From NCBI RefSeq assembly GCF_900108505.1, contig NZ_FNWU01000006.1, forward strand, positions 1 to 64,000: a DNA stretch of 64,000 nt, read 5' to 3'. The notes below the pieces were generated by a model, which saw only the letters and a list, made by a program, of their open reading frames with translations, did no database searches and had not been told where the DNA came from. Below, in pieces: positions 1,294-4,489 of the stretch. The DNA is from Halopenitus malekzadehii. Its GTDB lineage: Archaea; Halobacteriota; Halobacteria; Halobacteriales; Haloferacaceae. Made by a program: the position numbers and the translations under genes. Within the stretch, counting starts at the first letter, position 1, and every line of letters begins with the position of its first letter.

Positions 1294-1509
1294 TCACAGA
1301 TCGTACGCCGCTATCAGAACGCGGCTGCCGATCGCCGCGAGACCCGCGAGGAGGACCCCGGCGATGATCGCGATCCGGAGGTCCCCGTTCCACACCGCAA
1401 CGACGACGAACCCGACCATCCCGATCCCGTTCGCGATCAGCAGCCGAAGCGTTCGCGAGCCGCTCGATCGGGACGCCGGATCGTCCACGGAACGGGAATC
1501 GGGATCCAT
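1294..1509 (-). CDS. Small two-helix membrane protein, hypothetical
   Basis: A 71-residue protein of unknown function. Residues 1-22 are polar and rich in Ser, Asp and Arg. Two hydrophobic stretches follow (RLLIANGIGMVGFVVVAV and IAIIAGVLLAGLAAIGS), predicting two membrane helices with a short loop. The frame extends upstream to 1563, but the ATG at 1507-1509 starts right at the polar leader and is preferred. It stands alone, divergent from the coiled-coil membrane protein at 1677. Small two-helix proteins like this are common and often unassigned in haloarchaea. Confidence 0.55.
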   Translation of the reverse strand: MDPDSRSVDDPASRSSGSRTLRLLIANGIGMVGFVVVAVWNGDLRIAIIAGVLLAGLAAIGSRVLIAAYDL

Positions 1510-1676
1510 CACGGGACGTCGTTTTTCTCCGCGGAGCAAAGCCGCTTCGCTTGCGGGCCGCATCGGATTTCCGTTTCCGACCCGCGTTCCGATCGGCTTC
1601 GATCGGAGTCAGCCACCGCCATCGTTCGGCGGTCGGTATCAACGGGCAAAAGACCCTGGCCCTTCTGGATAGACAT

Positions 1677-2411
1677 ATGAAACCCAACCAGATCGACTTC
1701 ACCGTCGATTTCGCCTACGGGGTGCTGCTCTTTCTTGCGATCGTGCTCATCGTCACGGTCGGGACCGGCGTCGGCATCGCGTTCGGTCTCGGCGCGCTTG
1801 TCTCCTATGTGATCCACGTCGGCTGGAAGATGTCCCGGTTCGATCCCGAATGGATGACCGAGGAGGTCACCGAACAGATCGAGGAGACGATCACCGAGGA
1901 AGTGACCGAAAGCGTCGGCGAGAAGGTTTCCGAGGACGTCTCGGAGAACGTCGAACGAACGGTCGCTGAAAAGGTCAGTAAGGACGTCGGTGAGCAGGTG
2001 ACCGCAGAAGTGACCGAGGAGGTTACCCAGAGCGTCGAGCAAAAGGTGACCAAGGAGGTGACCGAGAACGTCGAGGAGGCCCTCTCCGGGGAGATTGACT
2101 CGATCATCACCCAGCTCGAGGAGGTCAACGATCGGATCGAGCGGCGACCGAGCCGAACCGAACTGGACGCCACGGATGAGCCGAACGCCGGCGATCGGGG
2201 GCGGTACGAGACGGTGGCTCCCGACGCGAGTGATGTGGCGGACGCGGCTGACCGGAACGACACTGCCGAGGAGGACTGGGCGGTCGACGCCAACGAACGG
2301 ACGACCGATGATGCGGCTGACGAGACGGATGAGGACACCGACGACGCGGACGACGACGGAGAGTCCAGCACAGCACGATCGACGGCAACCACCCAGGAAC
2401 AGACCGACTGA
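1677..2411 (+). CDS. Membrane-anchored period-4 repeat protein next to a PiT permease
   Basis: A 244-residue protein of no family I recognise. Residues 13-48 are hydrophobic and Gly-rich, giving one or two membrane helices. From Val64 to Ile144 a Val, Ile or Leu occurs at every fourth position without a break (64, 68, 72, up to 144), the other positions being mostly Glu, Thr, Ser, Lys, Gln and Asp in VTEE/VSEK-type tetrads. The last 85 residues are an acidic, disordered-looking Asp/Thr/Ala tail. The start is the ATG at 1677; upstream in-frame codons read as non-coding. Its stop overlaps the start of the permease gene by one base (TGATG), so the two proteins are very likely co-translated and may work together at the membrane, as scaffold, sensor or regulator (inference). 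Confidence 0.8.
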   Translation: MKPNQIDFTVDFAYGVLLFLAIVLIVTVGTGVGIAFGLGALVSYVIHVGWKMSRFDPEWMTEEVTEQIEETITEEVTESVGEKVSEDVSENVERTVAEKVSKDVGEQVTAEVTEEVTQSVEQKVTKEVTENVEEALSGEIDSIITQLEEVNDRIERRPSRTELDATDEPNAGDRGRYETVAPDASDVADAADRNDTAEEDWAVDANERTTDDAADETDEDTDDADDDGESSTARSTATTQEQTD

Positions 2412-3589
2412 TGGCGGCCGATCCGCTGATCGCCGTCGGCCTCCTCGTCGCGCTGTTCGTCGGGTTCAACATCGGTGGTTCGACGACCGGTCCCGCCTTC
2501 GGACCCGCGGTGGGCGCGGGCGTGATCTCGAAGCTGCTGGCCGGCGCGTTGATGTCGATCTTCTTCTTCGGCGGCGCGTGGACGATCGGTCGGCGCGTCG
2601 TCGACACGCTCGGTCGGGAGCTCCTGTTCGATGCCGGCGTTTTCACCATCGAGACGAGCATCGTCGTCCTGTTCTTCATCGGCGGCGCGCTCTTCATCGG
2701 GAACTACACCGGGGTTCCGGCCTCGACGTCGATGACCGCCGTCGGCGCGATCGCCGGGCTGGGCGTGGCGACCGGCGAGTTGAACTGGGCCGTGATGGGC
2801 GAGATCGCCGTCTGGTGGATCGTCGCGCCCCTCGTGGGGTTCTGGGTCTCGGTGATGATCGGTCGGTACATCTACCCGACGATCAACCGCTGGGTCGCGA
2901 TCACGACGAGCGACGGGTCCCTGATCGTGCTGGATCGGTCGGGGACGATTCCGATCCCTCGTCCCGGACCGAACACCACGCGGCGCGAGTTCGTGGGGAC
3001 GATCGTGCTCGTCTCCATCAGTTGTCTGATGGCGTTCTCCTCGGGAACCTCCAACATCGCCAACGCGATCGCCCCGCTGTACGGCGCCGGTGTGGAGCTG
3101 AACCTGCTGTTGCTTCTCGGCTCGGGCGCGGTGGCTCTGGGTGCGCTCACGATCGCTCGCCGCACGCTCGATACGCTCGGCAACAACCTCACCGACCTGC
3201 CGCTCACCGCGGCGATCGTCGTCGCGCTCGTCTCGTCGGGGATCGTCATCGGTCTGTCGGCGATCGGTATCCCGGCTTCGTTCGTGATCATCGCGACGAT
3301 GTCGATCGTAGGGCTGGGGTGGGGACGCGCAACCCGTACGACGACGCTGTCGGACGGCATCCGTGGCGAGGAAGAGACCACGGTGTCCGTGGGCGCGCTC
3401 GCCGCCGAGGAGCCCGGCGAGAAGGCGCCGACCCTCGGTGAGGAGAGCCCGGCGGACATCCCCAGCGCGGCCGACCTCTTCGACCCGGCCACCACCGGTC
3501 GCGTCATCCTGATGCAGAACCTCGTCCCGGTCCTCTCGACGGGCGGCGCGTACCTGACGTTCTGGCTGCTCTTTCGGTTCGTGTGGTGA
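2411..3589 (+). CDS. PiT-family inorganic anion (phosphate) permease
   Basis: A 392-residue polytopic membrane protein resembling PiT phosphate transporters (PF01384 type). It has about ten hydrophobic segments and two repeat signatures: GFNIGGSTTGPAFG near residue 19 and FSSGTSNIANAIAPL near residue 207. PiT proteins normally carry a GANDVANA-like motif in both halves; only the second copy is close to that here. A soluble loop (residues about 155-190) and an acidic segment (about 310-360) separate membrane blocks, and the protein ends in a final membrane helix. It overlaps the upstream period-4 repeat gene by one base, so both are probably one operon. The substrate is probably phosphate, but the altered first motif leaves sulfate or another anion possible. 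Confidence 0.85.
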   Translation: MAADPLIAVGLLVALFVGFNIGGSTTGPAFGPAVGAGVISKLLAGALMSIFFFGGAWTIGRRVVDTLGRELLFDAGVFTIETSIVVLFFIGGALFIGNYTGVPASTSMTAVGAIAGLGVATGELNWAVMGEIAVWWIVAPLVGFWVSVMIGRYIYPTINRWVAITTSDGSLIVLDRSGTIPIPRPGPNTTRREFVGTIVLVSISCLMAFSSGTSNIANAIAPLYGAGVELNLLLLLGSGAVALGALTIARRTLDTLGNNLTDLPLTAAIVVALVSSGIVIGLSAIGIPASFVIIATMSIVGLGWGRATRTTTLSDGIRGEEETTVSVGALAAEEPGEKAPTLGEESPADIPSAADLFDPATTGRVILMQNLVPVLSTGGAYLTFWLLFRFVW

Positions 3590-3647: not shown

Positions 3648-4262
3648 CTAGTCGTCGCGATCCTGCCCGCCGCCGCCATCGGCTCCGTGCCGCCAGAGCG
3701 CGTGCGTGATCGCCGGGAGGTCGTGTCCGGTCTCCCCGGCGATCTCCAGACACGCCGATCGGTAGCGGCGGTAGTCGTCGACCCCGAGCAGGTCGGGATA
3801 CGGTTCCGCGATCGTGCCGCACTCCCGAAGCGCCCGCCACTCGCGTTCGCTCACGACTGGATACGACTCGGGATCGAGGAACGCGAGAAACGCCGAGGCG
3901 ACTCCGACGTCGACCCCCTCGAGCGCGGTGAGCTCCGTGACCGCGCCCGCCACGTCCTCCTCCTCGATGCGGTCTGCCGCGGTCGTGATGGCCGCGATCA
4001 CGTCGTCGAAGGGGTTCGACTCGAACCGTTCCTCGACCGCGCGGCGATCCCGATCCGGGTACGCGCCGAGGTGCCGTCGGAAGTACCACCGGACCACCCA
4101 CTCCGCGTCCCGCCGGCCGAACTCGCCGGCACGGAACGCCTCGGGCAGCGTCTCGCGTTGTTCCTGTTCCACCGCGTAGATCGGTTCGGTTTCCCGATAC
4201 GCCGCGGAGAGCTCCGCGATCGTGTCGGCGGTGAGGTCGGGGTCGGTGGCGGCGTTGGTCAT
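3648..4262 (-). CDS. Helix-hairpin-helix-like hypothetical protein
   Basis: A 204-residue soluble, acidic, mostly helical protein. Residues about 120-150 (LTALEGVDVGVASAFLAFLD, then YPVVSEREWRAL) resemble the helix-hairpin-helix region of HhH-GPD DNA glycosylases, where a GVG turn is followed by an Asp-containing strand. The catalytic Lys/Asp pair of that family is not recognisable: the expected Asp position reads as Ser/Glu. A DNA-binding or structural relative is therefore more likely than an active glycosylase (inference). The start at 4262 is chosen over the frame's upstream extension, which is only translation of an 18-bp tandem repeat. The gene is convergent with the permease and divergent from formate dehydrogenase. 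Confidence 0.6.
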   Translation of the reverse strand: MTNAATDPDLTADTIAELSAAYRETEPIYAVEQEQRETLPEAFRAGEFGRRDAEWVVRWYFRRHLGAYPDRDRRAVEERFESNPFDDVIAAITTAADRIEEEDVAGAVTELTALEGVDVGVASAFLAFLDPESYPVVSEREWRALRECGTIAEPYPDLLGVDDYRRYRSACLEIAGETGHDLPAITHALWRHGADGGGGQDRDD

Positions 4263-4335
4263 CTCACGTGTTGCTTCGGGACAGAAGTCCCTGAACGTTT
4301 CCCGACGCGTCGATCGGTTATGATCGGTCCCGATC

Positions 4336-4425
4336 GGTGCGGTCGTTTCGGTCGGTGTGGTTGTCTCGGTCGATGTGGTCGTTTCGGTCGATGTGGTTGT
4401 CTCGGTCGGTGCGGTCGAGATCGAC
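4336..4425. repeat. 18-bp tandem repeat between divergent genes
   Basis: Five consecutive 18-base units of the form g-r-tg-y-ggtygtytcggtc; the first four differ by only a few bases and the last is degenerate at its end. The array lies in the 227-base gap between the HhH-like gene and the formate dehydrogenase gene and is therefore probably non-coding. Confidence 0.9.
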
Positions 4426-4489
4426 CAACACACTCATACCCAGAGAGTTCGTCCGTTTAGACATATGTACGCACACGGGGAGGGAATCC

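Follow-up and report, generated by a model that had tools for sequence, protein, structure and literature searches.

Haloarchaea encode a previously unnamed family of proteins in which a membrane anchor is followed by a tail repeating every four residues, and the genes of this family recur beside genes for PiT phosphate permeases. The member described here lies in a window of 64,000 nucleotides (positions 1 to 64,000, forward strand, of contig NZ_FNWU01000006.1 from Halopenitus malekzadehii), where it overlaps a PiT gene. The features concerned are:

1677-2411, + strand: tetrad-repeat membrane protein gene, 244 aa; ATG at 1677, stop at 2409-2411
1677-1859, + strand: N-terminal domain, residues 1-61; two predicted transmembrane helices and the conserved WKMxRFDPxWMT motif
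1866-2108, + strand: tetrad array, residues 64-144; 21 x (V/I/L-x-x-x)
2109-2162, + strand: heptad-like cap, residues 145-162, containing the LEEVNDRIERRP motif; also seen in alignment, with V-D/N-x-R-V/I-x-RRP in 33/80 homologues
2163-2408, + strand: acidic low-complexity tail, residues 163-244; no secondary structure predicted, length and sequence variable among homologues
2409-2413, + strand: TGATG stop-start overlap of the tetrad gene and the PiT gene
2411-3589, + strand: PiT-family (PHO4) permease, 392 aa; PF01384

A period-four array in the window protein

Between residues 64 and 144, V, I or L occupies all 21 fourth positions (22 if M60 is counted), and the off-register residues are polar with the exceptions of A97, A110, A135 and I143. 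The first-pass annotation, made from the letters alone, had described this unbroken repeat among polar residues and the stop-start overlap of the gene with PiT, and both descriptions hold apart from those four residues. Shuffling the segment 20,000 times never gave a run longer than 9, and the strongest signal in the hydrophobicity spectrum of the array is at 4.0. Past residue 144 the spacing becomes heptad-like (T-Q-L-E-E-V-N-D-R-I-E-R-R-P).

Codon-repeat slippage without conservation, the explanation that the same annotation had set against its own reading, does not account for the pattern. The array DNA has a self-identity of 0.52 at a 12-nt lag and a codon identity of 0.19, and its core codons are a mix of GTC, GTG, GTT, ATC, ATT and CTC. 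Compared with two congeners, the 21 core codons show 4 and 6 synonymous differences, respectively, and 0 non-synonymous ones; purifying selection acts on the core codons. Since the DNA repeat has decayed and the core changes are synonymous only, the amino-acid pattern has been kept by selection and does not reflect fresh slippage.

No Pfam or NCBIfam model matches the protein at its cut-off and a search against PDB sequences gave a single, insignificant match, which agrees with the earlier remark that no family of this description was known. Weak Pfam and NCBIfam matches (T4 gp5, SseC, DUF445 and a type III translocon) are far under the cut-offs and located on the array, and were therefore treated as compositional.

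Elsewhere in the window, a block of ~49 bp occurs twice in tandem at 1-97, at the start of the contig (C38), and may be a real repeat or a contig-end artefact. A short tandem repeat of ~18 bp (tcggtcgatgtggtcgtt) at 4340-4430 encodes TETTTSTETTT and sits at the possible N-terminus of a minus-strand ORF (3648-4433), for which no Pfam match was found.

Distribution of the family and variation of the array

The 64-residue N-terminal domain has relatives in 108 of the 195 genomes sampled from the order, spread over 44 of 66 genera; among the named ones are Halopenitus persicus (98% in the domain), Halobellus, Halogranum, Natrinema, Halorubrum, Natronomonas, Halobacterium and Natrialba. Outside the order, neither subfamily model (see below for the second subfamily) found a member among 295 sampled genomes of the phylum. 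Alignment of 21 homologues showed D7, D11, G15, G33, F36, G37, G39, H47, WKM52, R54, DP57 and WMT61 to be invariant in the domain, and in most homologues the tetrads begin at residue 64, straight after the WMT of the DPxWMT motif.

The first-pass annotation had called for homologues that keep the spacing, and nearly all haloarchaeal homologues do. Across 80 loci, the step from one core residue to the next is exactly 4 in 90% of cases and 3 in 7.6%; V accounts for 92% of core residues, and T for 49% of the residues directly preceding them. The longest unbroken run has a family median of 21.5 (80 proteins), and in 75 of the 80 it is longer than any run obtained by shuffling the protein's own tail 200 times. 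Array length ranges from about 3 to 81 tetrads, the latter all consecutive in homologue L019, while ten members have runs of <8, several of these being PiT-adjacent copies of 117-129 residues. The Fourier period has a median of 3.97 (range about 3.82-4.0), sporadic three-residue steps pulling the average down to about 3.9-3.97. Of the 218 indels counted between close homologues, 159 have a length divisible by 4, a single tetrad being the commonest, and only 25 a length divisible by 12, which identifies the tetrad as the unit. A 12-residue super-repeat is the best lag in 25 of the 80 proteins. A heptad-like cap with VxxRIxRRP ends the array in 33 of 80 homologues, and the window protein has one too.

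Near-identical tetrad blocks were seen at L103:8001-9400, with an apparent frame shift inside the array (VEDTVEK to KLSKIPSKGPS) that is probably either recent repeat slippage or an assembly error of the MAG. A search with the array alone returned almost exclusively the tetrad family or its antisense strand. The opposite strand of the array is open for long stretches, in the window (ORF 1509-2042, minus strand) as in many homologues; these antisense ORFs, of LLDGFADR type, are spurious and draw homology matches. The same search gave tetrad arrays in one small-genome family (G009:C17:29424-30065, G037:C133 and G048:C281), at sites without a match to the type I N-terminal model.

Linkage to PiT permeases

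The permease in the window belongs to the PiT family, with 139 bits against PF01384 (cut-off 33.7, E 2.4e-40) and 133 bits against the CysP-type sulfate permease model NF053884, whose cut-off is 400. In 46 of 80 named loci the tetrad gene has a PiT gene no more than 1 kb away, divergently upstream in 25, codirectionally downstream in 20 and ambiguously in one (L069, an antisense match). By chance, such adjacency would be expected in about 0.6% of loci, for five PiT genes spread over 3.2 Mb; the 46 loci are related and hence not independent. Mapping of the three placements on a tree of the N-terminal domain, which has few columns and many unresolved forks, required at least 11 label changes, implying that the linkage has been kept or regained through rearrangement. 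PiT genes are present in every well-assembled genome of the order, so that their mere presence is uninformative and it is adjacency that carries information; the tetrad family, for its part, is absent from many haloarchaea that have PiT. Three PiT-adjacent members (L082, L083 and L110) carry 3-5 tetrads only, and a long array is thus not required for the linkage. Near PiT, a putative UspA-type universal stress protein, named from sequence reading, was also noted in 21 of 80 loci (for example, L102:9775-10255).

Weak matches led to a second tetrad subfamily, in which RGRQTQFYID..LYG..GGLVxGYFLRVWEKMSIYER precedes the tetrads. It shares its architecture with the first subfamily and is remotely homologous to it (hhalign probability 92.5, E 4.8e-7). 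At 10 of its 17 loci the tetrad gene adjoins a PiT paralogue that is 36-64% identical to the PiT of the window. Two loci (L129:3800-10000 and L130:2500-8900) each hold two complete tetrad-PiT pairs in close proximity, with another, more distant PiT lying between the pairs or to one side, an arrangement that suggests local duplication of the pair.

The gene-neighbourhood check that the first-pass annotation had advised, made here on the tetrad loci, finds tetrad-PiT linkage in both arrangements and in two subfamilies. The annotation's proposal of a dedicated partner is supported as far as recurrent linkage goes; a dedicated subunit is a more tentative reading, with no PiT found within about 8 kb at 34 of the 80 loci. 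Those 34 loci, together with the highly variable length of the array, would also fit a general membrane scaffold or spacer without specificity for PiT, the linkage then reflecting shared regulation. We regard this reading as unlikely though credible, for PiT is the sole widely shared neighbour of tetrad genes, and the pairing spans two subfamilies and several PiT paralogues. At loci without PiT no alternative conserved partner recurs across genera, the neighbours being unrelated (TRM, PGM, proteasome, amino-acid permease and others).

Predicted structure of the array

Periods accessible to coiled coils run from 3.33 to about 3.9, the most extreme local period cited being 3.8, and a period of 4.0 falls outside (Hartmann et al., 2016; PMC4786415), as the first-pass annotation had held for ordinary coiled coils. 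The core period of the window protein (4.0) and the family median (3.97) both exceed this range. For a helix of 3.63 residues per turn, a period of 4.0 would give one superhelical turn per ~39 residues (a path of 59 Å), compared with ~98 residues for heptads; as 4.0 is greater than the helix repeat, the valine stripe would drift right-handedly at that rate. The array would then have to supercoil much more tightly than the known examples do, unless straight helices make use of a winding stripe.

AlphaFold2, run on the window protein with 20 homologues, predicted helices at residues 3-28, 30-54 and 63-155 with a mean pLDDT of 52, falling to about 42-48 in the array (about 42-60 over helix 63-155). 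The first two helices are predicted to form a membrane hairpin ahead of the array, consistent with the membrane anchoring claimed earlier. The 81-step homologue, predicted from its single sequence, was all-helical, with two helices of ~115 residues and one of 47, and pLDDT of 70-77 in the best parts. These predictions favour a helix for the array without settling its fold, which may be a tight right-handed superhelix, a lone helix or another arrangement. Valine and threonine, which together fill about two of every four array positions, are poor helix formers. Foldseek searches of the PDB with the 81-step model gave no match at E < 0.001, and a PDB sequence search with the 81-step array retrieved only low-complexity tails of ribosomal bL17. 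Literature searches on four-residue periodicity and on haloarchaeal PiT partners found no reports.

A beta-solenoid, or another non-helical fold with a four-residue side, could draw on the beta-branched V and T that are common at the core and preceding positions and on the 12-residue super-repeat; both AlphaFold2 models are helical, however, and the rarity of 12-residue indels argues against a fixed rung, which makes such a fold highly improbable. The low pLDDT of the array lends itself to a different explanation, namely that slippage has expanded an acidic repeat that is disordered or only weakly folded, and that the hairpin alone is functional. Recent expansions at the DNA level, the likely frameshift in L103 and the members with short arrays fit this account. 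It is nonetheless difficult to reconcile with core residues conserved over deep divergence, with indels in multiples of four, with core codon changes that are synonymous only and with a protein period that is intact where the DNA repeat of the window has decayed, and we consider it distinctly unlikely.

A possible role beside PiT

The case for tetrad proteins as putative PiT partners is one of gene linkage. We give about an even chance to the reading that the tetrad protein is a PiT accessory partner whose array serves as a cytoplasmic helical rod or tether of adjustable length. The two predicted transmembrane helices would anchor it in the membrane with both ends probably cytoplasmic, as judged from basic residues that flank the hairpin on either side. 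The acidic array would then extend as one long cytoplasmic alpha-helix, a prediction of low confidence, and may associate with itself or its neighbours via the stripe winding round it. In this way it could cluster or space transporters, or use the C-terminal cap to tie PiT to a partner. A bolder proposal is that the array forms a regular alpha-helical assembly of true period 4.0, whether a tight right-handed superhelix or straight helices packed via the winding stripe, and so represents a new class of rod organising PiT in haloarchaeal membranes; we advance this tentatively, as a possibility against which the balance presently lies. The family offers a candidate partner for PiT permeases across a whole archaeal order.

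Comparison with known systems

In many prokaryotes a helical protein, the Pit accessory protein (PhoU_div/DUF47, PF01865), is encoded beside PiT. The tetrad gene shares this adjacency (46/80 loci, and 10/17 in the second subfamily), but its product is membrane-anchored whereas the PF01865 protein is soluble, and PF01865 was not among its Pfam matches up to E 1. The source genome has one PF01865 gene, which is near none of its five PiT genes, and the tetrad protein may substitute for PhoU_div/DUF47 as PiT partner.

Single alpha-helix (ER/K) domains are long, highly charged helices, as the tetrad array is predicted to be. The array differs from them in its regular valine stripe, and where ER/K helices have mainly opposite-charge i/i+4 pairs, tetrad arrays have 2092 like-acidic against 1409 opposite pairs.

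A spacing of 4 is beyond the range proposed for ordinary coiled coils, so the structure of the array would be new; should it fold as a regular rod, it would constitute a structural class without description in the literature searched. With up to 81 perfect tetrads, these are natural sequences on which the upper bound proposed for coiled-coil periods can be tested. A further likeness is to right-handed coiled-coil stalks (hendecad 11/3, pentadecad 15/4 and YadA-type 19/5; PMC4786415), which share with the tetrad array, as it is predicted, a long rod, a stripe period >3.63 and a right-handed drift, but the tetrad array differs from them in holding a period of 3.97-4.0 over tens of repeats.
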